This document shows positions 1 through 15,009 of a DNA stretch of 15,009 nucleotides, piece by piece; within the stretch, counting starts at the first letter, position 1; every line of letters begins with the position of its first letter. Source of the DNA: Anaerolineae bacterium (GTDB lineage Bacteria > Chloroflexota > Anaerolineae > Aggregatilineales > Phototrophicaceae); the NCBI GenBank assembly GCA_020848855.1, contig JADLHH010000014.1, positions 1-15,009 on the forward strand. The letters are read 5' to 3'. Under the pieces are notes generated by a model, which was not told where the DNA came from, did no database searches, and saw nothing but the letters and a program-made list of their open reading frames with translations. Made by a program: the position numbers and the translations under genes.

Positions 1-1356
1 CCGGAAGAAATACAGGTCGGCGGTGGCGTTGAGCAGCGCCGCCAGCAGCGCGGCGTGAAATCCGAGCAGGATCGAGCGAAGCTGCACGTTATCCTGCACG
101 CGCCGCCACGCCTTTAGCCCGTAGCTGAATATGCCGATCATCACCGAAGCGAAGATCGCCACGCCCACCAGCCCGATCTCGTTTGCCATGATCAGGTACA
201 TGCTGGCGGCGTTGGTGTAGATATCGATCTCCGGTGTACCGGTGAACCCCACGCCTGTGATCGGGTAGCGCTGGATCAGCCGGAAGGCGTCGCCATATTC
301 CCCAATGCGCATCTGCGTGGACAGGTCGCTGGCGGTGAATGCCTCGACGAACCGGAACAGGTACGCCTGCGTCTGCGGGATCAGCAGCATGGCGACAAAG
401 CCAGCCGCCGCGAGCGCCAGGAATTTGCGATAGCCCCGGAACATGCCGATGAAGACGATGCTGAGCGCGACCGCCAGCAGCGACGCCCGCGAGTAGGTCA
501 ACAGCAGCGCCGCGCCGACGATGCCCAGCACGACCCACGCCAGCAGCCGCCAGCGCAGCACCGGCTTGCGCGCGAACACCTGCGGCGCGATCATCGCCGT
601 CGTCACCGCCAGAAAGCCGCCGAATGCGTTCGGGTCGACCCATGTGCCGATAGCGCGCTCCGCCATCTCCGGGTTGTCCTCGATGTAGCGGATCACGCCG
701 CCATTCGGGTAGCCGATGCGCGCCAGCCGGATCAACGTGCGCTCTGCCGCAGCATCGGGCATGACGTACAGCACCAGCGCCGCGAGCGCCTGCGTGCCTG
801 CCGCCACCATGATCACCAGCACCAGCCGGCGCAGGCTCGTCGGGTCGCGCAGCAGGTCGACCAGCACGAACACCATGCCGATGCTCAGCAGCGTTTCGGC
901 GAACTGGCGGGCAATAGTTGCCGTTGGCGCAGCGTGGCGCAATCCGAGGACGAAACTCAGGATCAGCCAGCCCAGATACAGCAGCAGCGGCGCGTGAACC
1001 GGCGTCAGCCGGAAGAACTGCCGCCGCCCGGTCATCCACTGAAACAGGTAGACCAGCAGAAATGCGCCGAACGCGCCGTCCAGCAGCGTTGGCGTGAAGC
1101 CGATTTTCACCGGAAACGTGCCGAACGGAATCAGCGCCATGACTGCGATCAGCGCGTACAGCGCAGCGGAAACGTCGGTCAGGATGTACAGCGCGGCGAG
1201 CGCACCGAGAATTACGCCTGCGGCGATTAGCGGCTCGAACGCAGCGATCAGCAGTCCAATCAGCCCGCCAATCCCGCCAATCGCCACCCCGACCAGCACC
1301 GCGTACAGGCGGCGATCCAGCCGGGCAACCCACATCTGTAAGCCGTTAATTTCCAC
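1..1356 (-). CDS. O-antigen ligase/polymerase-like membrane protein (Wzy_C family), 3' end beyond window
   Basis: The frame is open for 452 codons from a GTG at 1356 to the left edge, so the C-terminus is missing. It reads as a polytopic membrane protein with about ten hydrophobic segments. Wzy_C-type (O-antigen ligase) landmarks are GTWVDPNAFGGFLA at residues 237-250, TYSRAS at 287-292, YPITGVGFTG at 364-373, and an N-x5-YL...NEIGLVG stretch at 382-398. Family members polymerise or ligate lipid-linked glycans on the outer face of the cytoplasmic membrane. If the host is a Chloroflexota without LPS, the acceptor is more likely an exopolysaccharide or cell-wall glycan; that is inference. The GTG start is chosen because AAGGAG lies 9 nt upstream; an in-frame ATG at 1335 is less well placed. 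It follows the YfhO gene by 56 nt and is the last visible gene of the glycan operon. Confidence 0.88.
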   Translation of the reverse strand, partial: MEINGLQMWVARLDRRLYAVLVGVAIGGIGGLIGLLIAAFEPLIAAGVILGALAALYILTDVSAALYALIAVMALIPFGTFPVKIGFTPTLLDGAFGAFLLVYLFQWMTGRRQFFRLTPVHAPLLLYLGWLILSFVLGLRHAAPTATIARQFAETLLSIGMVFVLVDLLRDPTSLRRLVLVIMVAAGTQALAALVLYVMPDAAAERTLIRLARIGYPNGGVIRYIEDNPEMAERAIGTWVDPNAFGGFLAVTTAMIAPQVFARKPVLRWRLLAWVVLGIVGAALLLTYSRASLLAVALSIVFIGMFRGYRKFLALAAAGFVAMLLIPQTQAYLFRFVEAFTASDLSTQMRIGEYGDAFRLIQRYPITGVGFTGTPEIDIYTNAASMYLIMANEIGLVGVAIFASVMIGIFSYGLKAWRRVQDNVQLRSILLGFHAALLAALLNATADLYFFR

Positions 1357-1365
1357 GCGCTACAA

Positions 1366-1371
1366 CTCCTT
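1366..1371 (-). promoter_or_regulatory. Shine-Dalgarno AAGGAG deciding a GTG start
   Basis: AAGGAG on the minus strand is 9 nt before the GTG at 1356. It decides the start of the O-antigen ligase-like gene. It directly abuts the left arm of the palindromic repeat at 1372-1434, so a hairpin in the mRNA would end at this site. Confidence 0.75.
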
Positions 1372-1434
1372 AACGCAAAGGCGCGAAGGAGAGAATTTGA
1401 TCTTTGCGCCTTTCATCCTTCACGCCTTTGCGTT
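1372..1434. repeat. Imperfect palindromic repeat (AACGCAAAGGCG type)
   Basis: The arms at 1372-1390 and 1416-1434 are inverted copies matching at 18 of 19 positions (AACGCAAAGGCGYGAAGGA). Part of a further copy (GGCGCAAAG) lies in the spacer. The element spans the 3' end of the YfhO-like gene, supplying its last codons and TGA stop, and fills the gap to the next gene's ribosome site. It resembles dispersed small repeats seen in many bacterial genomes; only one full copy of this exact subtype is in the window. Confidence 0.75.
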
Positions 1435-3779
1435 GAATCTCTTCTTTGAACTCTCCCTACCGCCAGCACGACGCCTATCACACCCATCCCGAGCCACGCA
1501 AACAGACTGATCGACGCGCCAACGCGGTCGCTGAGCGGATTGTACACCAGCCGCACCGAATGATCGCCTTCGGGCACGACCAGCGCCGCCAAGCCGCCGT
1601 AAGCTCGCAGGATGTCGGTTTCCGCGCCGTCGATGGTCGCATACCAGCCCGGATAATCCGGCAGCGCGACCGACAGGATCGCCGGGCGCGGCGCGTCGGC
1701 TTGGATGGTGATCGCTTCTGGCGCGAACGACAGTACTTCCGCTGCCTGTGGCGCGTCGGTCGTCATCGGAACGCCCGGATCGCGCGCGAGGATGACCGCC
1801 CGGCGCGCGTCGAACGCCGGGTCGCGCAGCAGGGCATACGCCGCCTCATCGTCCGGCACGACGGTGTAGCTGTACGCCAGCAGCGCGAACGGTCGCGGAT
1901 TGGTCAAGCGGTGCAGGTTGACCGCGCCGTAGCGATCCGTGCCGGTTCCGACGATCTCCGCAGGGACGGGCAGTTCCTGCCAGTCGGTGAAGACGTAGCG
2001 CACGGCGAACAACTCCCACGAGCGCTCGTCGGGCACGTCGCCCTCGATGAGATGGTACGGTCCGTCCATCCACAGCGGGCTGATGCCGTGAATGTCCATC
2101 ACGTCGTACAGGCTGCCGTAGTTATCGGTCAGCCCGCGGAAGCCGTCGACGCGGAACGGTGTGTCGCTGTCGGCGAGCGCCTGCGCGACCAGCGGCGGTG
2201 CGCTCATGCTGACCTGATCGCCCGGCGGGACGTGATCATAGACCGCCGCCGAATCCATGTTCATCGAGAACAGCTCGAAGATTACCAGCGGCACGATTGC
2301 CCACAGGATTTGTGGTCTGCCGCGCGCGAACGCCAGCGAAACGATCAGGTAGGCTGCCCCGGTGACGATGATCGCCAGCACGGCGGCGCGGATCAGATTG
2401 GCGTAAGCAGCAGGGCTGCCGACCCAGACGACGAACACCAGCGCGCCGAGTGCCAGCGCCAGATAGAACGCCCGGTTGAGCGCCCGCCGCAGGCGCAGCC
2501 CGGCGACGTGGTCACGCGCCGAGTCCCACCGCGCCAGCCACGCCGCGCCCATCGCTGCCAGAATCGCCAGACTGTTGGCGACCAGATAGGCGGCGCGCTC
2601 CTGACCGCGAAAATAGCGCAAGCCGGGCAGGGCATTGTAGAGCGCCGCGAAAACCGGGCTGTTGCCGCCGAAGCTCAGCAGCAGTGCCACCAGCGCGACC
2701 GCGCCCCAGAACCACACCTGCGGCAGCCTGCGCCATAACGCGATCATCGCCAGCGCCAGCCCGGCGACGCCGACCCACAGCGGCGAATACAGGCTGACCA
2801 CGCCCGGCAGGAAGAACTGCGCCACGTCCTGCAGCGGGAAGCCGTTGCTCTTGGCGTCGAAGCCGAAGTCCGCCCGCGTTGTGCGACTCAGGTACTCGAC
2901 GCCCGGCAATAGCTGCACCGCCGCCAGCCCGAAGGCGATTATGCCGAACAGCGCCGTGCCGAGGATGAACAGAATCAGACGGTTTTCGCGTAGGGGCGCA
3001 CGGCTGTGCGCCCTTGCGACATGAGGCATCCCCCACACGCGATAGCCGAAATAGGCGACCAGCAGATAGGTCAGAAAGAAGCTGGTCTGCGGATGCCCCG
3101 CCAGCCACGACATGCCGAGCGCCAGCCCGGTCACGACCAGCCACGCCCAGCGGATGCGCTCGCCGAACCCTGTTCGGTGGCGCGTCGCTTCCAGAGCGCC
3201 GAGCGCCGCCAGCGGCAGCCAGACTCCGGCTTCGAGCAGCGCCAGTTGCAGCGGCGGATAGCCCGAAAGATAGCCGCCATACCCGCCGATCACCGCCGCG
3301 ATCAGCGCGCCGAGGACGCTCCCGGTCAGCCGGCGGGCGAAGGCGTACAGCATCAGCGTATAGGCGAGGACGTGGAACGTCATCTCCAGTTCGAGCGCGT
3401 GGTACGTCCATCCGCCGGAAAGATTGCTCAGGGCGATAGTCAGCAGGCGCGGCGGGTAAAAGACCGCCGCCTGCGTGTCGGCGATGAACGGCAGCCCGCC
3501 GTTGTTGTAGGGGTTCCACAGCGGGATTTCGCCAGCCGCGAAGCGCTGGTACTGGTATCCGGCGAAGGCGACGAACTGCCCGGAGAAATCGCCCTGCTTC
3601 AGCGACGCCTGATCCGCTGTGATAGGCGTGAACAGCCGCCAGAAGAACAGCAGCCACAACAGGATCAAGACGACAATTGCCAAAATATCGAACCGCCAAG
3701 ACGCAGAGGACGCCAAGAAATAACCGGGCATTTTCTTGGCGCTCTTGGCGTCTTGGCGGTTCAAGTTCGTCTCGCTCAT
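1413..3779 (-). CDS. YfhO-family polytopic membrane protein, glycan-modification role likely
   Basis: 788 aa. The N-terminal two thirds is rich in transmembrane helices and contains GEIPLWNPYNNGGLPF at 83-98 after the first helix, plus a later loop reading LPGLRYFRGQERAAYL, both typical of the YfhO family (PF09586). The C-terminal extracytoplasmic part has the family's YPGWYATIDGAE segment and a final helix. YfhO proteins are GT-C-like and are linked to glycosylation of surface polymers; the substrate here is unknown. The ATG overlaps the TAA of the upstream gene (TAATG) with GAGG just upstream, indicating translational coupling. Residues about 6-29 (NRQDAKSAKK onward) are encoded by a palindromic repeat, residues about 254-264 by a second repeat, and the last codons and stop by a third. 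None of these segments looks like native YfhO sequence. Confidence 0.88.
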   Translation of the reverse strand: MSETNLNRQDAKSAKKMPGYFLASSASWRFDILAIVVLILLWLLFFWRLFTPITADQASLKQGDFSGQFVAFAGYQYQRFAAGEIPLWNPYNNGGLPFIADTQAAVFYPPRLLTIALSNLSGGWTYHALELEMTFHVLAYTLMLYAFARRLTGSVLGALIAAVIGGYGGYLSGYPPLQLALLEAGVWLPLAALGALEATRHRTGFGERIRWAWLVVTGLALGMSWLAGHPQTSFFLTYLLVAYFGYRVWGMPHVARAHSRAPLRENRLILFILGTALFGIIAFGLAAVQLLPGVEYLSRTTRADFGFDAKSNGFPLQDVAQFFLPGVVSLYSPLWVGVAGLALAMIALWRRLPQVWFWGAVALVALLLSFGGNSPVFAALYNALPGLRYFRGQERAAYLVANSLAILAAMGAAWLARWDSARDHVAGLRLRRALNRAFYLALALGALVFVVWVGSPAAYANLIRAAVLAIIVTGAAYLIVSLAFARGRPQILWAIVPLVIFELFSMNMDSAAVYDHVPPGDQVSMSAPPLVAQALADSDTPFRVDGFRGLTDNYGSLYDVMDIHGISPLWMDGPYHLIEGDVPDERSWELFAVRYVFTDWQELPVPAEIVGTGTDRYGAVNLHRLTNPRPFALLAYSYTVVPDDEAAYALLRDPAFDARRAVILARDPGVPMTTDAPQAAEVLSFAPEAITIQADAPRPAILSVALPDYPGWYATIDGAETDILRAYGGLAALVVPEGDHSVRLVYNPLSDRVGASISLFAWLGMGVIGVVLAVGRVQRRDSTQRREG
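2990..3020. repeat. GTAGGGGC-type palindromic repeat inside a CDS
   Basis: GGGCGCAC at 2994-3001 and GTGCGCCC at 3006-3013 form a perfect 8-bp stem around a GGCT loop, preceded by GTAG. The right flank has decayed (CTTGCGAC where a symmetric element would have CCTAC). It lies in frame within the YfhO-like gene and encodes VARAHSRAPLR between two membrane helices. The outer GTAGGGGC matches the palindrome at 9025-9053, although the cores differ. Confidence 0.7.
3690..3762. repeat. Long imperfect palindromic repeat (CGCCAAGA type) at the start of a CDS
   Basis: Two 32-nt arms (3690-3721 and 3731-3762) are inverted copies matching at 27 of 32 positions around a 9-nt spacer. Each arm is itself a run of CGCCAAGA-like 8-9 nt units. 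The element lies 15 nt inside the YfhO-like gene and is read through in frame. A single arm of the same family lies at 4926-4957. No transposase is encoded, so if mobile it would have to be moved in trans. Confidence 0.85.
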
Positions 3780-6016
3780 TACTCATCCTCGCGTGGCAAA
3801 ACGCGCACGCGGCTGAGATAAGTATAGTCGTTCGCCATGCCGCCGTCAGCCGTGACGATCCGCAGGCGCGGGAACGTGCCGTCGCCGGGGCTGCGGTACA
3901 GCCCGATTTCGACCTCGTAGATGCCCGGCGGCGCGTCGGGGTTGACCGTCAGCGTATGCCTATCCTCGACGATTTCGCTCGGCGTCCATGTTGACGTAGC
4001 CGAGCCGCCCGGCGCGCTGTCCGATCCGGCGTAAATCGTGGTCGTCGCCGGGTCGATGACGTGGGCAAAGACGGTGTAATCCTGCGAAACCGGCTGGATC
4101 GCGCGCCAGTAAAGCGTCAGATCGAACGACGCGCCCGCCGCCGGCGTGAGATCGCTCAGCGCGTAGCCGACCAGTTCGAGCCTGTCGCCAAAATTGACGC
4201 TCAGCGGGTTTGGGATGTTCAGGTCGCTGGCGCGCGGCTGTAATCCGACCGTGCCGATTTCGAACACGTTCGAGCCGTCGGGCAGGGCAAGACGTTCGCC
4301 CGTCGCCAAATCGGACCAGCCGACGACGACTCGCAGCGTTTCGGGCGCGTAGGCGCTCGACGGCACGACGACCGCAACCGGGTTGCGCCACGTGTAGCCC
4401 GCCGCCAGATCGCCCGTCGCCAGCGTGCCGCCGCCGGGGTACACGTCGCGCTGCCCGACGATCACGCCATCCGGCGTCACCAGATGCACGAACAGACTCC
4501 AGTTGCGCTGGAGCGGCGTTTCGATCCGCCAGTCGATTTCGAGCAGGACGTACTCATCGGGCTGCACGGTCGCCGTCGAGATGCGCGCATCCAGCAGCGC
4601 GACTGCGCCGTCATCCGGCGCGTTGAATGTTGCCCGTGCTGCCCCTGATTCCGCCGGAGCGGGCAGGGCATATGCCGGGGCGATCACGCCGAAAGGCGCG
4701 TACACGGCGACCACCGCGAAGACCAGCGCCGTCGCGCCGATCAGCAGCGGGCGGGCGCGGCGCGGCAGCCACCACGTCAAGCCGAGCGCGATCAGCACCA
4801 GGATTGGCGACAGCGCGCCGAACACCAGCCGCCCCTGCGACGCCCACGTCTCCGCCGTCCAGCGCAGGTACGAGATCAGGGTGATCGCGATCCAGAGGAC
4901 GGAGACGAGGTGAGGAAGATATTTTGAACCGCCAAGACGCCAAGTCCGCCAAGAAGTGAGGCGGTAGAGCATAAACAGTGCTGCGCTGACGATTCCGACG
5001 CCGCTGATCAGGTTGAATATCAGGTACACGGCGTCCGGCAGCGCCACGTTGACGCCGCCGAAGAAGCCCCAGAACGCCTGCGCGAAGCTGTCGCGTTCCG
5101 CCCACAACTGCGCGGCGTTCGCCGGGATCGCCCGCCGACCGACGATGTCGAGGAAATTGTTCAGCCCGGTCGGGTCGCCGTAAAGCTGGAAGTTGCGCAG
5201 ATACCACCACCCGGCGATCACAATCGTGAGCGTGCCGGAGATCAGCCCGCCGACCACCAGCGGACGCCAGTCGCGGAAGCGCAGCGAGACGACCACCAGC
5301 GCCAGCGCCACCAGCGGGATCAGCAAGCCGAGGTTGAGCTTCGCCAGCAGGCTTGCTCCGGTGATGATGCCAATCAGCGCGTATAGCTGGTAGCGCGGCG
5401 GGCGCTCGGCTTTGAGCAGCAGCACGATCAACAGCAGCAGCAGGTTGCCGAGCAGGTTCGACAGGTTATCGTTGTTGACTGACCCGCTGATGAACAGGAA
5501 CATCGGCAGACAGGCGTTCAGCGCCGCCGCGCCGAGCGCGACTTCCGGGCGCTGCGGGAACAATTCGCGCCCCAGCCGGAAGGTGACGATCACGGTGCCC
5601 AAGCCGAGCAGCACCGAGAACAGCCGCGCGATGTGAACCGCCAGCACCGTGCCGCGCCAGGGGAAGGCTTCCAGGTCGGCGTGATGCACGATCATGTTGG
5701 CGTTGCCGTCGGGGCGGATCACGCCGATGTCGGCGTGCGGGTTCTGCCGCCGGATCACGTCGAGATCGGACGTGTCAACCGGCGACGTGAGCACAGCAGC
5801 GATCAGATAGTACAGCGGCGGCTGGCTGCCTTCCTGCCGCCATGCCGTGATGATGCCGGGTTCCTGCGGCGGCAGCGCCAAGCCATGAGTCGCGAGATAC
5901 TGCACCATCGGGTAATGCCACAGCTCATCGGCTGCTTCGAAGATCGGTGTGACGACGCTGTAGACGGTCGCCAGCACCAGATATGCCGCGAGGATGGCAT
6001 ACAGGAGACGTTTCAA
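3779..6016 (-). CDS. GT-C membrane glycosyltransferase (GT39/PMT or DUF2142-like) with C-terminal beta-sandwich repeats
   Basis: 745 aa. Residues 1 to about 440 hold many membrane helices. The first outer loop has FEAADELWHYP with the Asp30-Glu31 pair expected of GT-C enzymes that use polyprenyl-phosphate sugars, followed by EGSQPPLYYL and later GSVNNDN. The remaining 280 residues are beta-rich and appear to hold two related units: one around DWRIETPLQRNWSLFVHLV, one around LYWRAIQPVSQDYTVFAHVI, each followed by a GG-containing turn. The start is TTG, overlapping the upstream TGA as TTGA, with CCGGAG 7 nt upstream. Residues 354-364 (SWRTWRLGGS region) come from a repeat inserted in a loop between two helices. 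The family call is firm; the donor sugar and acceptor are unknown. Confidence 0.87.
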   Translation of the reverse strand: MKRLLYAILAAYLVLATVYSVVTPIFEAADELWHYPMVQYLATHGLALPPQEPGIITAWRQEGSQPPLYYLIAAVLTSPVDTSDLDVIRRQNPHADIGVIRPDGNANMIVHHADLEAFPWRGTVLAVHIARLFSVLLGLGTVIVTFRLGRELFPQRPEVALGAAALNACLPMFLFISGSVNNDNLSNLLGNLLLLLIVLLLKAERPPRYQLYALIGIITGASLLAKLNLGLLIPLVALALVVVSLRFRDWRPLVVGGLISGTLTIVIAGWWYLRNFQLYGDPTGLNNFLDIVGRRAIPANAAQLWAERDSFAQAFWGFFGGVNVALPDAVYLIFNLISGVGIVSAALFMLYRLTSWRTWRLGGSKYLPHLVSVLWIAITLISYLRWTAETWASQGRLVFGALSPILVLIALGLTWWLPRRARPLLIGATALVFAVVAVYAPFGVIAPAYALPAPAESGAARATFNAPDDGAVALLDARISTATVQPDEYVLLEIDWRIETPLQRNWSLFVHLVTPDGVIVGQRDVYPGGGTLATGDLAAGYTWRNPVAVVVPSSAYAPETLRVVVGWSDLATGERLALPDGSNVFEIGTVGLQPRASDLNIPNPLSVNFGDRLELVGYALSDLTPAAGASFDLTLYWRAIQPVSQDYTVFAHVIDPATTTIYAGSDSAPGGSATSTWTPSEIVEDRHTLTVNPDAPPGIYEVEIGLYRSPGDGTFPRLRIVTADGGMANDYTYLSRVRVLPREDE
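4926..4957. repeat. Single arm of the CGCCAAGA repeat inserted in a CDS
   Basis: This copy matches the right arm of the 3690-3762 palindrome at 28 of 32 positions, with the first 19 bases identical (GAACCGCCAAGACGCCAAG). It is in frame in the GT-C glycosyltransferase gene and encodes SWRTWRLGGS in a loop between two predicted membrane helices. No inverted partner arm is visible next to it. Confidence 0.82.
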
Positions 6017-7164
6017 GCGATCGCTCCGGTGATGTCCGTGAAGAAGCCGGCGGTTGCCTGAGCAATCGCTGTCCAGTCAAAAGCGTGTGCCAGCGCCGCT
6101 GCGCCCGCTCGCAGCCGGGCGCGCTCGTCCGGCGACTCGTACAGGCGTCGGAGCGCCTCCGCCAATGCCGTCGGATCGTCCGGCGGCACGAGCCGCAGGT
6201 TTTCGCCGTCGACAAACGCCGGTATTGGCACGGCGGGCTGGGTGGTCACGACCGCGCCGCCGTGCTGGAGCGCCGCCATCAGCGTGCCGCGACGGTAGGA
6301 TGCGCCGTCGCGGAAGGGCAGGGCGATGGCGTCGGCGGCGGTGAGATAGCCGCTGACCGCCGCGTCGTCCAGATAGCCGGTGCGCTGGATGATGGGCGTG
6401 AGGTCGAGGCGGTCGATACCCTCCGGGTGCAGCGAAGCTATCAGCGCGTCGATCTCGCTCATATAGGCGGCGTTGGTCGGGTCGCTGCTGCCTGCCACCG
6501 CGCCCACCAGTACCAGCCGAATCGGTAAATCGCGTAGTTGGGCTGCGGCTTCGAGCAGTGTGTCCAGTCCCTTGCTGCGGTTGACCAGCCCAAAATAGAC
6601 GATCAGGAAGTCGGACTCGGCGGCGCCCGCCCGCGCTCGCCACGTGTCACGGTCGGACGGATGCACCGTGATGTTGCTGCCGATGGGGATCAGCACCGAA
6701 CGCAGCCCGGCGAGCCGCGCCGCATCCTCGTGATTGGTGGCGATCACGCCGGCAGACGCCCGCGCCAGCCGCATGACGATCCAGTCGCGCAGGCTGCCCG
6801 CCTTCGGAAACAGGTATGGGTAGCGCAGGTCGTGAAAGGTGGTCACGACCGGGATCGGGCGCAGCGCGTCCGGCAAAAAGTGAATGAACGGCGACATGCC
6901 GAAGGCGGCGGTCTGGTACTGGACGTTCACCACGTCGAGATCTCGCTCGCGCGCCCAGCGCCGGGCGGCAAACACGCTCCCGGCACCCCAATTCTCGATA
7001 CTGGCGCTCAGTTTGACGCGCGGATCGTCGCTGCGCGTTTCGGCGCGGCTGAGGACACAGAGTTCATGCCCCTGCGCCGCCAGTTCGCCCGCCAGAATCC
7101 GTGTGAATGCGCCGACGCCGCCCTGCATCGGCGGGTATTCGCCCGTGATCATGCCGATGCGCAT
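6013..7164 (-). CDS. Glycosyltransferase family 4 (GT-B fold)
   Basis: 383 aa, usual length for GT4. The N-terminal Rossmann domain starts MRIGMITGEYPPMQGGVGAF, with the glycine-rich acceptor loop at 9-20 and TTFHDLRYPY at 108-117. The C-terminal nucleotide-sugar domain has VYFGLVNRSKGLDTLLEA at 189-206, where the Arg/Lys pair would contact the donor phosphates. The usual E-x7-E motif is not present: the region reads FRDGASYRRGTLMAAL at 284-299, with Asp286 in place of the first Glu and no second Glu. It probably adds a sugar to a lipid-linked intermediate at the inner membrane face. The ATG follows the previous stop with no gap, with GAGGG 8 nt upstream, and its own stop overlaps the next start by 4 nt. 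Confidence 0.93.
   Translation of the reverse strand: MRIGMITGEYPPMQGGVGAFTRILAGELAAQGHELCVLSRAETRSDDPRVKLSASIENWGAGSVFAARRWARERDLDVVNVQYQTAAFGMSPFIHFLPDALRPIPVVTTFHDLRYPYLFPKAGSLRDWIVMRLARASAGVIATNHEDAARLAGLRSVLIPIGSNITVHPSDRDTWRARAGAAESDFLIVYFGLVNRSKGLDTLLEAAAQLRDLPIRLVLVGAVAGSSDPTNAAYMSEIDALIASLHPEGIDRLDLTPIIQRTGYLDDAAVSGYLTAADAIALPFRDGASYRRGTLMAALQHGGAVVTTQPAVPIPAFVDGENLRLVPPDDPTALAEALRRLYESPDERARLRAGAAALAHAFDWTAIAQATAGFFTDITGAIA
6024..6029 (-). promoter_or_regulatory. Shine-Dalgarno CCGGAG deciding a TTG start
   Basis: CCGGAG on the minus strand sits 7 nt before the TTG at 6016 and supports that rare start codon for the GT-C glycosyltransferase gene. It lies within the last codons of the GT4 gene. 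Confidence 0.6.
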
Positions 7165-8091
7165 CTAGTTGACCCTCAAGCCGGAGCGCAAGACCTGCCA
7201 GTACTGCCGCACGCGCTCCCGACGCAGCGCCCGCTTGTGACCGAGCAGCCCCTTCGCCGCTTCGACGGCAAGCTGCACGGCGTAATTGAGCAGCAGAAAA
7301 ACGCGCAGCAGTTGGGCGACCGCCGCGCCGTGATATTTGCGGAAGTAGCGCAGCTTGCTCTGCTGGAACAGCACGTGACGGCGCGCCACCACCTGATCGG
7401 TGCTTTTGCCGCCGTGATGTGTGATGTGGGCATCGCCCAGAAATACGACGCGCCAGCCGGCGTTCTTCGCGCGCTTGCACCAGTCGAGTTCCTCGGAGAA
7501 CATCACGTAGCCTTCGTCCAGCCCGCCAATCTGCGCGTACACTTCGCGCCGCGCCATCAGCGCCGACCCCTGCACCCAATCCACGTCGAGCGTCTGATCA
7601 TCGGGCGCATCGTTCACGTAATAGCGGTCGAGCAGGTGTTTGGGGGCGAGCGACTGAAGCCAGGTGCTTTCGAAAAATGCCGTCGCCGGCGTCGGGAAGC
7701 GCCGCCGCGTCGATTGATACGATCCGTCGCTGTTGTGAGTGTACGGACCGACGATACCGATGTCGGGGTGGGCGTCGAGGTAGACGACCATCCGCGTCAG
7801 GGCGTCATCCCGGATTTCCGTATCCGGGTTGAGCAGCAGCAGGTTACGACCCTGAGCTGCCGCCAAACCGACGTTATTGGCGCGGGTGTAGCCGATGTTC
7901 TCACCCTGTGGCAGAAGCGTCGTCTGCGGGAAGCGCTCGCGCACGCGGGCGAGTGTCGCATCGGTGCTGCCGGAATCGACGACGATCACTTCGGCGCTCA
8001 GGTCGCCCAGCCCGGCATAGACGCTGTCGAGGCACGCCGCCAGCAGGTCAGCGACGTTCCAACTGACGATGATGATCGAAAGGTCAATCAT
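7165..8091 (-). CDS. Glycosyltransferase family 2, rhamnosyltransferase (WbbL)-like
   Basis: 308 aa with a GT-A fold at the N-terminus: LSIIIVSWN at 4-12, VVDSGSTDAT at 37-46 for nucleotide binding, and NPDTEI at 88-93 as the metal-binding DXD equivalent. DWVQGSALMARREV at 171-184 and SEELDWCKR at 199-207 provide the acceptor-side and catalytic acidic residues typical of the WbbL group, and THHGGKS follows at 224-230. WbbL-like enzymes transfer rhamnose or a similar deoxyhexose to a lipid-linked sugar; the actual donor is not readable from sequence. It is the first gene of the glycan operon and its TAG directly abuts the next ATG. No Shine-Dalgarno is visible before its ATG, consistent with a near-leaderless message. 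Confidence 0.93.
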   Translation of the reverse strand: MIDLSIIIVSWNVADLLAACLDSVYAGLGDLSAEVIVVDSGSTDATLARVRERFPQTTLLPQGENIGYTRANNVGLAAAQGRNLLLLNPDTEIRDDALTRMVVYLDAHPDIGIVGPYTHNSDGSYQSTRRRFPTPATAFFESTWLQSLAPKHLLDRYYVNDAPDDQTLDVDWVQGSALMARREVYAQIGGLDEGYVMFSEELDWCKRAKNAGWRVVFLGDAHITHHGGKSTDQVVARRHVLFQQSKLRYFRKYHGAAVAQLLRVFLLLNYAVQLAVEAAKGLLGHKRALRRERVRQYWQVLRSGLRVN

Positions 8092-8100
8092 AACCGGGCG

Positions 8101-8129
8101 ATTTTACCAATAATTTGCAATTGGGAGAA
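8101..8129 (-). promoter_or_regulatory. Putative extended -10 promoter for the glycan operon
   Basis: On the minus strand, TGGTAAAAT (8109-8101) matches an extended -10 element (TGn plus TAAAAT), with a weak -35 TTCTCC at 8129-8124 after 17 nt. The -10 ends only 9 nt before the GT2 ATG, which would give a leader of a few bases at most. This agrees with the absence of a ribosome site there. It is prediction only. Confidence 0.4.
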
Positions 8130-8186
8130 CCTGCATCACACTCTCATTACATTTCTGCCCCATCATCCTGTGAAGTTGAACACGAT

Positions 8187-8192
8187 GGAGGT
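8187..8192 (+). promoter_or_regulatory. Shine-Dalgarno GGAGGT deciding a GTG start
   Basis: GGAGGT lies 6 nt before the GTG at 8199 and sets the start of the secreted repeat protein so that it opens directly with a signal peptide. No convincing plus-strand promoter was found in 8092-8186. Confidence 0.85.
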
Positions 8193-8198
8193 GTAACT

Positions 8199-8987
8199 GT
8201 GAAGACGAAATTGGGATTGGTGATTGTGAGCCTGATCGCCGTTCTGGCGACGGTCGGTGTGGTCGGCGCGCAGGATGCCGGGCAACCGTCAGCGCCACCG
8301 GATCGCCCCGGTATGGGACAGCGTGGCGACCGTCTGCAGAACAGGTTTCAGGTGCTGGGCGACCTGGCGCAGATTGTCGCCGATGACCTCGGCATCGAGC
8401 GCGCCGAACTCGTCCAGCAGCTTCGCGAGCAGACGCTCGAAGAAGTGATCACGGCGATGGGCGGCGACATCGACCAGATCACGGCTGATGTGACCGCCGC
8501 GCTGACCGAGCGCGTGAATCAGGCAGTCGCCGACGGCAAGCTGGCGCAGGAACGCGCCGACGCGATCCTCGCAAGCCTGGACGATGTGGTGCAGCGCGCC
8601 CTGAGCGGTGAGCTGAGGGGCGTACTGCGCGACAGCATCGGGCGTTTGGGGCGGGGCGACCGCCTGCCGCTGGTGCAGCGCCCGTTCCTGAACGACACCC
8701 GCCCACTGATCAACGCGGCGTCTGATGCAATCGGGCTGACCGGGCAGGAGATCGCTCAGGCGCTGCGCGATGGCAAGACTCTGAGCGAGGTGATCACCGA
8801 GAATGGCGGCAGCCCGGACGCGATTGTTGCCAGCGCCATCGCTCTGGTCAAGGAAACACTCGACCCGGCGGTCGCCAATGGTCGGCTGACGCAGGAGCAG
8901 GAAGACGCGATGCTCAGCGGGCTGGAAGCGTTCTACGACGCGGTCATGAACGGCGCGTTCCGCACCGAGGCGAGCGCGTCGGTCTAA
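8199..8987 (+). CDS. Secreted protein of unknown function with two internal ~80-residue repeats
   Basis: 262 aa. It begins with a clear signal peptide, MKTKLGLVIVSLIAVLATVG, with likely cleavage after VVGA (residue 24). The mature part has no cysteine and seems largely helical. Two related units are visible: residues 57-140 and 173-254. Each has an L-G start, a TL(E/S)EVIT segment followed by a GG turn, a central A-V-A-(D/N)-G-(K/R)-L-(A/T)-Q-E motif, and ends in a (S/N)G(E/A)(L/F)R turn. A Gly/Arg-rich link joins them. Similar helical repeats occur in secreted proteins of Actinobacteria and Chloroflexota, but I cannot name a function. It is the only plus-strand gene, divergent from the glycan operon and convergent with the TatD gene. 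An ATG at 8115 in the same frame would bury the signal peptide and lacks a suitable ribosome site. Confidence 0.88.
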   Translation: MKTKLGLVIVSLIAVLATVGVVGAQDAGQPSAPPDRPGMGQRGDRLQNRFQVLGDLAQIVADDLGIERAELVQQLREQTLEEVITAMGGDIDQITADVTAALTERVNQAVADGKLAQERADAILASLDDVVQRALSGELRGVLRDSIGRLGRGDRLPLVQRPFLNDTRPLINAASDAIGLTGQEIAQALRDGKTLSEVITENGGSPDAIVASAIALVKETLDPAVANGRLTQEQEDAMLSGLEAFYDAVMNGAFRTEASASV

Positions 8988-9024
8988 ATCCTTGCTTCCA
9001 ATTGAGCATCGAAACGTGTTTGTA

Positions 9025-9053
9025 GTAGGGGCAGGTCTCAGACCTGCCCCTAC
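9025..9053. terminator. Perfect GTAGGGGC palindrome between convergent genes
   Basis: GTAGGGGCAGGTCT at 9025-9038 and its exact complement at 9040-9053 surround one central base, giving a hairpin with at least a 13-bp stem. It lies between two convergent genes and can end transcription from both sides, although no long T-run follows on either strand. The TAG stop of the TatD gene is inside the right arm. The outer 8 bases match the start of the element at 2990, so it is probably a dispersed repeat serving as a terminator. Confidence 0.7.
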
Positions 9054-9850
9054 GGATTCTGATTCATAGATGGCCGCCGGAACCGGCGCGCGGCAGTGGC
9101 GGTCGTCGCCCGCGCCATCTCGTCTATAGGGATTGCGTGCAGGGCGGCGAGGCGTTCGACAATCAGCGGGATGTAGGCAGGTTCGTTGCGCTTGCCGCGA
9201 TGCGGCGTCGGCGTGAGGTACGGTCCGTCAGTCTCGACCACGATCCGGTCGAGCGGCACGCGGGCGGCGATGTGGCGCAGGTCGTCAGCGTTCTTGAAGG
9301 TGATCGGTCCGGTGAAGCCGAGATAAAACCCGGCGGCGAGCGCGCGATCCGCGACCGACTGCGGCGCGGAGAACGAGTGCAGCACGCCGGGGCGCTCGCG
9401 CAGCGCGGGCGGTAGATCGCGCGCCCACGTTTCGAGGATGGCGATCACGTCCTCGCTGGCTTCGCGGTTGTGGATGATCACCGGCAGTTCCAGCCGCGCC
9501 GCCAGCGCCAACTGCGCCTCGAACGCCCGGAACTGCATCGGCTTCGGGCTGTCGTCCCAGTGATAATCCAGCCCAATTTCGCCGATGGCGACCACCTTCG
9601 GCTCTTTCGCCAGCGCCTCGACCCATCCGAGATCGGCATCGGTGAAATTCGCCGTGTCATTGGGATGGATGCCAACCGCCGCGTAGATGCCGTCATACTG
9701 CGCCGCCAGCGCCAGCGCCTCTTGGCTGGTCGCTTCGTCGACGCCGGGGTTGATGACGCGCGTCACGCCGGCGTCGGCAGCGCGCGCGATCACCTCGGCG
9801 CGGTCGGCGTCGTAGCCCTCGAAATTGAGATGGCAGTGCGTGTCAATCAT
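9050..9850 (-). CDS. TatD-family metal-dependent hydrolase (probable DNase/quality-control nuclease)
   Basis: 266 aa, the normal length for the family. The TIM-barrel amidohydrolase ligands are all visible: His5 and His7 in MIDTHCHLNF, Glu91 in GEIGLDYH, His127 in PVIIHNRE, His158 in LHSFSA, and Asp208 in ETDGPYL. GIHPND and PHRGKRNEP are also classic TatD segments. TatD proteins are cytoplasmic Mg-dependent 3'-5' exonucleases, with proposed roles in DNA damage repair; some paralogues may have other substrates. The gene starts 12 nt after gmd, with no clear ribosome site, so it is probably expressed from the gmd transcript. The last residues (MNQNP) extend to a stop supplied by the palindromic repeat, so the native C-terminus may have been a little different. 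Confidence 0.95.
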   Translation of the reverse strand: MIDTHCHLNFEGYDADRAEVIARAADAGVTRVINPGVDEATSQEALALAAQYDGIYAAVGIHPNDTANFTDADLGWVEALAKEPKVVAIGEIGLDYHWDDSPKPMQFRAFEAQLALAARLELPVIIHNREASEDVIAILETWARDLPPALRERPGVLHSFSAPQSVADRALAAGFYLGFTGPITFKNADDLRHIAARVPLDRIVVETDGPYLTPTPHRGKRNEPAYIPLIVERLAALHAIPIDEMARATTATAARRFRRPSMNQNP

Positions 9851-9862
9851 CGATTGCGGCGA

Positions 9863-10837
<975 letters not shown>

Positions 10838-10867
10838 GTGTGCTGCTTTCCATCGATGAGAGGAGAG

Positions 10868-10893
10868 CGGGAGTCCCCGCGTGGGGACTCCCG
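10868..10893 (-). terminator. Hairpin after the DUF4397/SH3 gene
   Basis: Perfect 11-bp stem (CGGGAGTCCCC with its complement) around a 4-nt loop, 14 nt past the TAG stop of the secreted protein gene. On the minus strand it is followed by a pyrimidine-rich CTCTCCTCTC tract rather than a clean T-run, so it may terminate only partly and let some transcripts reach gmd. Confidence 0.65.
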
Positions 10894-10906
10894 TTGTAGA
10901 TTTCGC

Positions 10907-13417
10907 TTAGCCCTGCGGCGTCTCGGTCGGCGTGGGCGTCGACGTGTCGATGATCGGCAGGGTTTCCTTCTCGTAGGGCTGTCCGTTGAACGTCAGTTCG
11001 ACGTACTGGCTGAACACCCAGCCCTGCTGTCCCTGATACGTCACCTGATACCACAGATCATCGGTGCTGCGCCCGGTAACGACCATCATCGTGCCGTCCG
11101 GCAGCAGCGCCAGCGATTCCGCCTGATCGTTGTTGTACCGGCGCAGGTGCAGGTTGGCGTCCGGGTTCAAGCCGACCACTTCGCCCGCCACGACATCGCG
11201 CAGGTCTTCGGCGACCGTGGGACCGGTCTGCCCGCTGGTGACGACGCTGCCGCGCTGGTCGGTGCTGATCGTGTTCAGTTCGCCGAGCAGTTCCAGCCGG
11301 GCAAAATCGACCGCTGAGTTGTTGCGCTGGAACGTGACGAAATTGGTGCTTGTCCAGCCGGTGACGGTGCTCTGCGGCGCGGTGAAGCGCACGAACACCC
11401 AGTCGCGGTCTTCGTTCACGCCGAGCAGTTCCATCTGCGTGCCAGCCGGGACGAGCGCCAGCGATTCACCCTGAACCGAAGGCACGCGCCGCAGGTGGAC
11501 GCGCACGCCCGGATCGACGTTGGTGACTATCGCCAGCGTGATAATCTCGCGCTCCGACGGCGGCTGGATAGCCGTATCGTGGGCGCTGCCCGCCCGGTTG
11601 CTGGGGACGGTCGGCAGGTCGCGCAGCGGCAGCGCGCGCCCCTGAGAGTCGCGGACGCCGAGGTACAGCGCGTTCACCCAAGCGGTGATCGCGCCGCCGT
11701 CCGGCGTGTCGTAAGTGACGTTGAGCCACGTCAGCGTCGGGTCGAGGTCTTCGCCTTCCGCCAGCAGTGTGACCGGGTCAACATATGCTTCCGCACCCTC
11801 AGGCAGCGGGGTTGCCGTCGTGCCGACCGCCGGGACAGGCTCGCCTTCACGACCGTTGACGAGCAGCACCGCGCCGGAAGGCGCCAGACCGAGCGAGAAC
11901 GCCTCGCGGTTGGGGTACTGGCGAAGCTGCAGGTTCACGCCGGGGTCGAGCAGCACGCGAGCGGTCGGTCCGGTTGTCGTCGGAATGGCGGTCGGCTGCG
12001 GGATAATCTCGACAGCCGTCGTCGCCGTCGGCTGCGGGTTTTCAGCGACAGGGGCTTCTGTCGTCGGCGCGGCTCCGGTTGGGACGAGCGTCGGCTCTGG
12101 CAGCGCTTCGGTCGGGGCGAGCGTCGGTTCTGGCGCTGCCATCGTCGCGTCGCCGGGGGCGCTGGCCGTTCCCTGCGCCAGACTGACCGGCGGCAGTTCG
12201 ATAATTGAAGCGCCGTCCGCGCCGTCAACCACGATGGCGCTGTAGTACACGCCGCCGTAAATGCCGCCCCGCAGGTCGAGCACCTGGTCGCTGACGGCAT
12301 CACCTGTCGCCGCCGATACGGTGATTCCCTGATCGCTTGGCTCCAGCAGCGTCGAATCCGAATTGCCGCTGCCGACATCCCCGATCAGCGCCGCGCCGTT
12401 GGAAAAGGCGGCGGAAACGGTCGCGTCAGTGGACATGTTCATCACCGTCAGCACCGACGTGTTCTCGTTGACAGCGTTCACCACATCGTCGATGACCTGA
12501 ATGTCAGGCTGTTCCGCTTCACCGGCGATCAGCGCGGTCGCGCGGCGGTCGGCGGATACGTCCAGCGTCGCGGTGGCGATGTCGCTGGACGAGCCGGGCA
12601 GCCGTGCGGCAACTTCATACGATCCGGTGGGCAGGGCGATGTATCCGGTCGCTTCGCCAAAGCCGAGCGATGGCGCGGTGAGTACGTTGTTCAGGTAAAT
12701 GTCGACTTCCGGCGCACCGGGGACGACGTGAGCAAAGCGGACGCTGCCGCCTTCGAGTTCGGGTTGGGTAGGCGCAGAGAGCAGCATCGTCTGCACGTCA
12801 TCACCCGTGCCGTAAACAATCGCCACGTATGACGTGCCCGAATTGAGCTTGTAAGGCTGCGCCGCGACCAGGGCATCGCTGACTGCCATCCCCGCCGGCA
12901 CGACCGCCAGTTCGTAAGCCGTTGCCGGTAGGTCGAGCGTGCCGTAGGGCTGGTTGTACTGCAAGCCGGGGATCACCGGGCGACCATCAGCGAGGATGAA
13001 GTCGACGCCGGAGCCGTTTTCGACGGCATGAATGGCGGTGAAGCGCGCCTTGCCGACCGGCAGCGCGTTGAGGTCATCCATGTACACCTGGAACGCGCCT
13101 TCGCCAGCCGACGCGGCGATCAGCGTCAGCGCGCTTCCCGCGCCCGTGTTGATATCCTGCTCCCACAGCGGCGAGTCGCTGCCGGTCTGGGTCACGGCGA
13201 TATGATGCCCGCCTGCCGGAACGTCGATGTAGGGGGATGCGCTGCCGTAACTCAGGTTGGCGACGGTCAGTTGACCATCGGTGTAAATATCGACCGCCGA
13301 CGCGCCAGGGATGGCGTGGACGAACCGGAGCATCGCGCCGCCGCTCTGCGCCATCGCCGGGATGGCGATCAGCATCAGCGCCAGCGCGATCAGAAAGACT
13401 CGTCGTACATAGGTCAT
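10907..13417 (-). CDS. Large secreted protein: DUF4397-like repeats, Pro/Thr linker, three SH3-like domains
   Basis: 836 aa. A signal peptide covers residues 1-23 (cleavage near AMA|Q). Residues about 29-410 contain four beta-rich units; the first and third are the clearest DUF4397 copies, starting RFVHAIPGASAVDIY and RFAHVVPGAPEVDIY, and the second (RFTAIHAVENGSGVDF) and fourth are more diverged. A low-complexity Pro/Thr/Glu linker spans about 418-485. Three SH3-like segments follow, at about 488-587, 632-696 and 750-808, each with an L(H/Q)LR(R/Q) strand and a SL(A/G)L-P-G turn. The end is a short TPTPTETPQG tail with no sortase motif or membrane anchor. The domains suggest an extracellular, possibly wall-binding protein, but no enzyme activity can be assigned. 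The ATG has AAGGAG 7 nt upstream, and the gene follows ahcY by 31 nt. Confidence 0.92.
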   Translation of the reverse strand: MTYVRRVFLIALALMLIAIPAMAQSGGAMLRFVHAIPGASAVDIYTDGQLTVANLSYGSASPYIDVPAGGHHIAVTQTGSDSPLWEQDINTGAGSALTLIAASAGEGAFQVYMDDLNALPVGKARFTAIHAVENGSGVDFILADGRPVIPGLQYNQPYGTLDLPATAYELAVVPAGMAVSDALVAAQPYKLNSGTSYVAIVYGTGDDVQTMLLSAPTQPELEGGSVRFAHVVPGAPEVDIYLNNVLTAPSLGFGEATGYIALPTGSYEVAARLPGSSSDIATATLDVSADRRATALIAGEAEQPDIQVIDDVVNAVNENTSVLTVMNMSTDATVSAAFSNGAALIGDVGSGNSDSTLLEPSDQGITVSAATGDAVSDQVLDLRGGIYGGVYYSAIVVDGADGASIIELPPVSLAQGTASAPGDATMAAPEPTLAPTEALPEPTLVPTGAAPTTEAPVAENPQPTATTAVEIIPQPTAIPTTTGPTARVLLDPGVNLQLRQYPNREAFSLGLAPSGAVLLVNGREGEPVPAVGTTATPLPEGAEAYVDPVTLLAEGEDLDPTLTWLNVTYDTPDGGAITAWVNALYLGVRDSQGRALPLRDLPTVPSNRAGSAHDTAIQPPSEREIITLAIVTNVDPGVRVHLRRVPSVQGESLALVPAGTQMELLGVNEDRDWVFVRFTAPQSTVTGWTSTNFVTFQRNNSAVDFARLELLGELNTISTDQRGSVVTSGQTGPTVAEDLRDVVAGEVVGLNPDANLHLRRYNNDQAESLALLPDGTMMVVTGRSTDDLWYQVTYQGQQGWVFSQYVELTFNGQPYEKETLPIIDTSTPTPTETPQG

Positions 13418-13448
13418 GTGATTACTCCTTCGCTTGACAGACGCGAGT

Positions 13449-14796
<1,348 letters not shown>

Positions 14797-14805
14797 AGGC
14801 GAAGG

Positions 14806-15009
14806 TCACGTTGCTCTCACCAACAGCTCGTCGAGTAGCCCGGCGTCGTCAAACTGGGTGCGGAAACGCCGCACGAATTCTTCCGGCGTGAAATTGTGGC
14901 TCTGCGTGCCGACCTGTTCCAGTACGTAGGTCGCGCACAGCGCCCCGATTTCCCCCGCCAGCTTGAGGTTCCAGCCGTGCGCCAGCCCGGTCAGCAACCC
15001 CGAACGGTA
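14806..15009 (-). CDS. PfkB-family sugar/nucleoside kinase, C-terminal fragment
   Basis: Only the last 67 codons are inside the window; the frame is open to the right edge and the 5' end is beyond it. The fragment starts YRSGLLTGLAHGW, the end of the PfkB signature 2 (D-x-F-R-A-G-x-L-x-G-L), and continues EIGALCATYVLEQVGTQSH and FTPEEFVRRFRTQF, as in the C-terminal helices of ribokinase/adenosine kinase proteins. PfkB kinases phosphorylate a sugar or nucleoside with ATP. The neighbour ahcY releases adenosine, so an adenosine kinase is a reasonable guess, but the substrate-binding residues are outside the window. It ends 94 nt before the ahcY start, with the ahcY promoter in the gap. Confidence 0.82.
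   Translation of the reverse strand, partial: YRSGLLTGLAHGWNLKLAGEIGALCATYVLEQVGTQSHNFTPEEFVRRFRTQFDDAGLLDELLVRAT

Follow-up and report, generated by a model that had tools for sequence, protein, structure and literature searches.

A palindrome in a coupled gene pair

The best-known selfish palindromes read in frame are those of Rickettsia, and the initial annotation of a 15,009-nt stretch of DNA from an Anaerolineae bacterium (contig JADLHH010000014.1, positions 1 to 15,009; hereafter, the window) proposed that an analogous element in an unrelated phylum encodes the N-terminus of a YfhO-like membrane protein. The nearest named homologues of the window YfhO are from Chloroflexota. The analyses described here concern this 73-nt palindrome and the family of short repeats to which it can be related. 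The features at the start of the gene are the following:

1413 to 3779, minus strand: YfhO-like membrane protein gene, 788 aa (PF09586)
3690 to 3762, both strands: 73-nt palindrome, with arms at 3690-3720 and 3732-3762 and a loop at 3721-3731, occupying minus-strand codons 6-30 of the YfhO-like gene
3732 to 3762, minus strand: 5' arm in the reading direction, GAACCGCCAAGACGCCAAGAGCGCCAAGAAA, coding for NRQDAKSAKK and containing three CGCCAAG units spaced at 8 and 9 nt
3690 to 3720, the arm itself on the plus strand: 3' arm in the reading direction; encodes FLASSASWRF on the minus strand
3777 to 3781, minus strand: overlapping stop and start, TAATG, coupling the YfhO-like gene to the gene upstream (read from the sequence and from relatives' loci)
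3787 to 3790, minus strand: GAGG, 7 nt ahead of the ATG, a candidate ribosome-binding site

A repeat search of the window returned an inverted repeat of 31, 11 and 31 nt, in which 27 of the 31 pairs are complementary (87%) and the middle unit of the 3' arm is CGCAGAG rather than CGCCAAG. When 20 windows were resampled from a first-order Markov model of the original, with loops of 0 to 60 nt allowed, the best 31-nt arm pair reached at most 22 matches. Folding of an 80-nt stretch around the palindrome gave -50.3 kcal/mol (z -10.1), compared with a shuffle mean of -20.9. The palindrome exceeds chance, and both the pairing and the strong fold bear out the claim that it is real. A search of Rfam gave nothing at gathering scores.

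The coupled start described in the initial annotation, TAATG with GAGG upstream, is present, with the YfhO ATG sharing 1 nt with the stop codon of the upstream gene and the palindrome beginning 17 nt behind this ATG. The in-frame placement was likewise confirmed, with the span corrected from codons 6-29 to codons 6-30. By hydropathy, the encoded N-terminal peptide, MSETNLNRQDAKSAKKMPGYFLASSASWRFDILAIVV, runs on into the first segment of hydrophobic residues (21-55 on the Kyte-Doolittle scale), in agreement with the earlier description of a peptide leading into the first membrane helix. An ATG in the YfhO frame, at -4 or -1 relative to the stop of the upstream gene, was found in 29 of 34 relatives' loci with both genes, a set in which two genomes each appear twice (L001/L024 and L002/L047); the loci without such an ATG were L029, L050, L059, L062 and L077. 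Because the coupled position is common to most relatives' loci, the YfhO ATG is probably the inherited start. A second ATG, at codon 17, sits in the palindrome loop, so the 3' arm would be translated even if initiation occurred there. Past the palindrome, and ahead of the conserved stretch of that first segment, the reading frame offers one start only, a TTG at codon 33, for which no ribosome-binding site was evident by eye. A stable hairpin 17 nt behind the start would lower YfhO initiation or, alternatively, would make it depend on translational coupling with the upstream gene; such coupling may offset the hindrance from the hairpin.

Two further copies of the family, in addition to the one initially annotated, were found in the window, in the upstream gene and at the opposite end of the YfhO-like gene:

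3779 to 6016, minus strand: membrane glycosyltransferase-like gene, upstream, 745 aa (DUF2142 match below its cut-off; homologues carry PF13231/PF09913)
4924 to 4955, plus strand: single arm of the same family, 94% complementary to 3733-3764, inside the glycosyltransferase-like gene
About 1371 to 1443, both strands: CGCAAAG-unit variant palindrome, covering the last YfhO residues DSTQRREG, the stop codon at 1413-1415 and the downstream spacer

Three copies touch one coupled gene pair, at the YfhO N-terminus, at the YfhO C-terminus and in a loop of the upstream neighbour. Minus-strand translation of the single arm gives SWRTWRLGGSK (codons about 354-365), which on hydropathy alone falls in a mid-protein loop between hydrophobic segments 336-354 and 366-384. 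The lone arm (4921-4958) folded no better than its shuffles on either strand (z 0.40 and -0.32), and the fold of the CGCAAAG palindrome gave -34.6 kcal/mol (z -6.0). A gene caller based on codon usage recovered both window genes with the copies at 3690-3762 and 4924-4955 inside them, a check that covered these two copies.

Architecture, distribution and placement of the repeat family

The conserved module is an arm of about 30 nt, in which TTGAACC is followed by three 7-nt units at 8- and 9-nt spacing, and this three-unit architecture of the window copy is also present in relatives' arms. The units read CGCCAAG in the window and CGCAAAG, CGCAGAG or CACAGAG elsewhere. Arms occur singly, as inverted pairs whose interior may be short or long (11 nt to more than 100 nt) and in tandem arrays. 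Amongst 114 arms from five genomes, the spacer between units two and three was 2 nt in 111. The spacer between units one and two was 1 nt in 26 of the 30 arms outside the seed choice; in the 84 seed-chosen arms it is 1 nt by construction, the pattern having allowed spacers of 1-2 and 1-3 nt. In the 30 non-seed arms the unit type was coherent within an arm, with a concordance of 0.489 compared with 0.269 after shuffling (maximum 0.378 of 500), although 24 of these arms came from two genomes, G431 and G434, and are partly array copies. Identity between partner arms was 0.69, 0.68, 0.66 and 0.78 in genomes G429, G416, G454 and G057, respectively (5, 8, 5 and 14 pairs), versus 0.77, 0.72, 0.63 and 0.76 between non-partners. 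Partner arms resembled each other less than non-partners did in G429 and G416, and slightly more in G454 and G057, with no clear sign of arm-to-arm compensation.

Interiors vary from genome to genome (by eye). In G057, eleven aligned copies showed a common element of about 210 bp, with arms near both ends and the interior in common. Locus L183 of G431 (1110-1513) holds a 413-bp imperfect palindrome whose two arms differ in unit type, CACAGAG against CGCCAAG. All six frames are open in 163 of 196 arms of 29 nt, versus 26% of random 32-mers from the window, and in only three of 37 whole paired elements.

The distribution of the family was surveyed in 154 genomes of the order of the closest relatives compared, whose YfhO proteins are at most 65% identical to that of the window. 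A 17-nt arm core with no more than one mismatch was found in 36 of these genomes, with a reversed-pattern control giving 0-1 per strand, and the highest totals per genome were 195, 103, 66, 64, 61, 60, 52 and 43 matches. Within one genus, five of 15 genomes matched. The CACAGAG version was present in 68 of the 154, and 25 of the 36 genomes with CGCCAAG had both versions (Fisher p 0.0006, uncorrected for kinship and from lists transcribed by hand). Amongst 400 Chloroflexota genomes there were 37 with matches, mostly single and near chance, and about 20 genomes with a control match (by eye); seven held at least three copies and five at least ten, while the control strand count never exceeded two.

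Records labelled as plasmids also carried the arm, in Nostoc sp. UHCC 0926 (six places) and other Nostoc, and its CACAGAG version in Gemmatirosa kalamazoonensis, Sphaerospermopsis, Anabaena, Calothrix, Nostoc and Bacteroides finegoldii, the last in records that hold chromosomal-type genes. The E-values of these records are weak (1e-5 to above 1e-2), and the case for cyanobacteria, Gemmatimonadota and Bacteroidota therefore rests on reading the arm architecture. In two Nostoc plasmids (L264 and L270, 1440-1600), a CGCCAAG-type arm lies within a structure of about 100 bp that resembles a miniature inverted-repeat transposable element (MITE), with TTAGGACTTACGCA-like inverted ends. Viral contigs gave 27 stretches with the exact core, some of which lack the third unit and are probably chance (by eye), and a phage collection gave three weak partial matches. 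Matches in Vibrio plasmids were excluded from the family, as they consist of plain tandem CGCCAAGA units with no ACC head (L272, one record). Unit-string and concept searches of the literature, mostly without subscription papers, found no description of the family and its arm architecture.

Placement relative to genes was determined in the genomes of eight relatives, which gave 578 core matches and 178 merged copies whose loci were read with the gene caller. The copies lay mostly outside called genes (147), with 11 across a gene edge and 20 inside, one of these spanning two genes. In a control of 4200 random stretches from the same loci, 3124 fell inside genes, 252 across an edge and 824 outside. 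A stricter gene test left two of 105 copies from five genomes in genes, with two more too close to the locus end. At least four reading frames are used, giving the peptides NRQDAK, EPPRRQ (EPPRRQERQ), WRLGG (LRPWRLGG) and LGVLAV (FLGVLGVLAV). Pfam was run on ten of the 31 in-gene or edge copies; all ten proteins had domains, and the insert lay outside those above the cut-off. Two of the ten inserts were internal, both in glycosyltransferases (L145 and L213), and the rest were near a terminus.

Insert peptides among homologues

Homologues of the window YfhO were taken as the best 120 of the 2065 under the threshold, from 7997 scored. The alignment of orthologues, which had been suggested as a check on the insertion, supported it: NRQDAK is missing from the 12 best-scoring homologues (P0001-P0012). 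It reappears as NRQDAKIAKRR in P0013 and NRQDTQITKK in P0014, at codon 7 as in the window protein, and P0009, with the N-terminus NHHDTR, is a doubtful carrier. On the YfhO tree, the N-terminal peptide needs four changes, of which at least three are forced by supported branches, and the label is unclustered (500 of 500 shuffles as low). C-terminal peptides akin to that of the window YfhO were seen in P0005, P0009 and P0011.

In the upstream protein, a SWRxWRxGG-like loop is present in six of 29 homologues and absent or replaced in the rest (by eye). The carriers are the window protein, P0122, P0125, P0126, P0129 and P0140, with degenerate forms in P0126 and P0140; the tree requires four changes of the loop peptide, and 30 of 500 shuffles gave a number as low. 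The single-arm insert probably predates the split from P0122, because this homologue, 87% identical to the window protein, has it as well. Elsewhere the loop is short or holds another repeat-like peptide, LSTQHSVLSTQHSALST in P0189 and PSLNSGRG in P0123 and P0132. A YfhO loop near residue 200 is occupied by DAKTQRREG in P0043 and by LSTQYS-like peptides in both P0102 and P0115; STQ-type N-termini occur in the YfhO homologues P0028 and P0031. LSTQHSVLSTQHSALST and its kin form a distinct repeat-like peptide at orthologous loops or at the N-terminus (P0189, P0102, P0115, P0028 and P0031). Presence and absence at orthologous sites were seen at the protein level for both YfhO and its neighbour, as either gain or loss would give, and the insert sites of both proteins look permissive for several repeat families.

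Origin of the repeat and its relation to known systems

With a probability of roughly 0.7, we interpret the window element as a copy of a short, dispersed and non-autonomous repeat family, similar to MITEs or to repetitive extragenic palindromic (REP) sequences, that is mostly intergenic and tolerated in genes. The in-gene copies of the window look like tolerated passengers rather than a dedicated protein-coding element. Many copies are dispersed with unrelated flanks, and the repeat may be spread in trans by some recombinase or transposase. Harmful in-gene copies would then be lost, and those at permissive sites such as termini and linkers would survive, in part because the arm consensus has no stop codons.

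Several observations weigh against this interpretation. No mobiliser was found in the genomes and loci examined, and an all-versus-all comparison of loci from five genomes, although not exhaustive, showed arrays, duplicated stretches of up to 738 nt and short common pieces and no transposon-like unit that could be an autonomous parent. The eleven aligned G057 copies had no consistent target-site duplication. Tandem arrays in G434 (L195, L200 and L201, with periods of about 98, 154 and 125 bp) indicate that local amplification also occurs. The proteins with the N-terminal peptide (the window YfhO, P0013, P0014 and perhaps P0009) form no clade, yet all have N at codon 7 and an identical frame, which either one old insertion with losses or repeated insertion would explain; the DNA of the window copy is still near the consensus, which agrees poorly with an insertion of great age. 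Absence was judged on proteins that are 26-34% diverged, and no exact empty DNA site was seen in a genus-mate search, where one locus gave no match spanning both flanks. The openness of the arm in six frames follows from the seed and the consensus and so is no proof of selection. Additionally, several of the relatives' in-gene copies may be start artefacts or false open reading frames (by eye): a later ATG is plausible for several N-terminal copies, and G416 contributed seven of the 20 in-gene calls, some in reading frames that look false (both by eye). As a side observation, two of the aligned G057 copies (L299 and L304) have similar short palindromic stretches to either side of the element, as flanking REPs or a duplicated target would give.

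A selected protein-binding or regulatory site, such as one for a nucleoid protein, a recombination signal or a transcript-end hairpin, with the three units as monomer sites, would account for the fixed unit spacing, the coherent unit type within arms and the intergenic bias. It would also agree with arms that are alike across the records of different phyla while interiors differ, and with their occurrence inside an unrelated MITE-like structure in Nostoc plasmids. We regard it as unlikely, since at the stringency of the search 118 of the 154 genomes of the order and ten of the 15 of one genus had no match, and the site is therefore not needed by most relatives; nor was arm-to-arm compensation clear in four genomes. 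Minisatellite-like local amplification with gene conversion of simple units, in the absence of transposition, is very unlikely: it suits the G434 arrays, the likeness of units within arms and the L183 palindrome with its arms of different unit type, but not the many dispersed copies with unrelated flanks, the lineage-specific presence inside orthologous genes or the dispersed 210-bp family of G057. Still less probable is a true protein-coding element, of the type of the Rickettsia palindromic elements (RPEs) or Wolbachia palindromic elements (WPEs), whose encoded peptide is selected to fit proteins. In-frame copies in the window and in relatives, a stop-free arm consensus and the contact of all three window copies with coding sequence speak for such an element, against the 147 of 178 copies outside called genes, the use of at least four frames and the scarcity of whole pairs open in six frames (3 of 37). 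That nothing was inserted at all, the tails being native and variable or translation beginning past the repeat, is hardly credible given the DNA identity to a multi-copy repeat, the coupled start upstream of it that most relatives have in common, the mid-protein position of the 4924-4955 copy and a TTG at codon 33 as the only in-frame start past the palindrome. Tail and loop lengths do vary among orthologues at the insert sites, KWRAD-like residues stand near the SWRFD position in some relatives, and the peptides of P0013 and P0014 are known at the protein level only.

An origin as a REP or bacterial interspersed mosaic element (BIME) of the GTAG or CGTC type, with a host REP-associated tyrosine transposase (RAYT) as its mobiliser, gains some support from gene content. 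In 154 genomes, counted from hand-transcribed lists uncorrected for kinship, a RAYT-like Y1_Tnp gene (66-112 bits) was present in nine of nine with at least 30 core matches and in 16 of 36 with any match, compared with 24 of 118 without a match (14 of the 40 of those of at least 4.7 Mb). IS200-type TnpA showed no such link (1/9 versus 13/118). Two RAYT genes, L247 with an arm at 184 nt and L251 with several arms from 655 nt, belong to one supported clade of three, but its third member, L258, has no arms. In flanks of up to about 1.5 kb, shorter at contig ends, an arm-like motif was near only four of 50 Y1_Tnp loci, at 184-1342 nt. Seven RAYT-like loci read by eye have inverted repeats of another kind, on both sides in six and on one side in L252, and RAYTs from genomes rich in copies do not group together on the tree. 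An arm on its own makes no stem-loop, and RAYT co-presence may merely mark genomes rich in small repeats. Since flanks and tree speak against it, RAYT mobilisation was judged quite unlikely despite the correlation in presence.

The repeats bordering the RAYT-like loci are GGCTAAAGCC- or AAGCCTGCTAAAGCGGCTT-like (L245, L247, L249, L250, L251, L252 and L258) and are apparently a second small-repeat system in the genomes of these Chloroflexota relatives. RAYT-like loci with their own inverted repeats resemble the TIRtron arrangement as outlined in passages of PMC3733652.

The dispersed repeat family favoured here shares features with several known systems. Cyanobacterial small dispersed and tandem repeats also consist of short, dispersed units; the likeness is one of description, not sequence, and Nostoc plasmids carry the window-family arm. 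Coding palindromes are reportedly found in Nematomorpha mitochondria, and a palindromic coding repeat is said to occur in Mollicutes and others; with these and the REP cases on record, in-frame palindromes outside Rickettsia are already known in principle. MITEs have inverted arms, multiple copies and no transposase reading frame, as do the window-family forms of about 70-210 bp, single-arm copies excepted. They differ in that no consistent target-site duplication or parent transposon was found for the window family, whose arms are also lone or in arrays.

RPEs and Wolbachia palindromic elements resemble the window family as short palindromic repeats in frame in unrelated proteins, tolerated at variable sites, and read-through of an otherwise conserved protein appears to occur in the window at the YfhO N-terminus and in the neighbour's loop. 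As passages of PMC10969869 describe them, nearly half of the RPEs are inserted in genomic reading frames, each encoding a conserved peptide. In the eight relatives only 20 of 178 copies lay inside called genes, and no single conserved peptide in a preferred frame was seen. The window family is set apart, by these descriptions and not by sequence, as mostly intergenic, read in several frames and built on a shorter arm of three units. Of the initial proposal of an RPE analogue, the dispersed palindrome in frame in a membrane protein gene was retained, and the RPE-type coding element was not, given the intergenic majority and the several frames. According to the portions of PMC3733652 consulted, GTAG and CGTC REPs are known from several phyla and in some cases lie within genes and at the ends of proteins, and RAYTs are flanked by REPs or by unrelated terminal repeats. 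From the same portions, REPs and BIMEs resemble the window family in their 20-40-nt modules, often paired in opposite orientation, their intergenic bias, their patchy occurrence between species and their occasional presence in genes (PMC3733652). The REP unit described there folds into a stem with a short loop and bears a GTAG or CGTC tag, whereas the lone window-family arm is unfolded in the fold test and carries no such tag by eye, and no arm was near 46 of the 50 Y1_Tnp loci, in contrast to a RAYT gene flanked by its repeats.

It is possible, if doubtful, that the triplet-unit arm, in which GAACC precedes three 7-nt units spaced at 8/9 nt, marks a superfamily of several phyla, in which a mobiliser recognises the three units, and unit type and recogniser diverge together. 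Such a superfamily, if true, would explain the coherent unit types within arms and the conserved arms around unrelated interiors. With an arm consensus that has no stop in any of the six frames, it would also repeatedly supply the proteins of many phyla with linkers and tails read in frame. If unit coherence does reflect a recogniser, the mobiliser is a testable target.

For annotation, these results warn that several N-terminal extensions of the arm type may be mis-called starts. Across orthologues, repeat-like peptides of at least three kinds (NRQDAK/SWRLGG, DAKTQRREG and LSTQHSVLS) occupy the loops and tails of this gene pair, a series suited to asking how proteins gain linkers. Altogether, the family would be a widespread repeat outside Rickettsia that yields in-frame insertions as a by-product of a mainly intergenic life.

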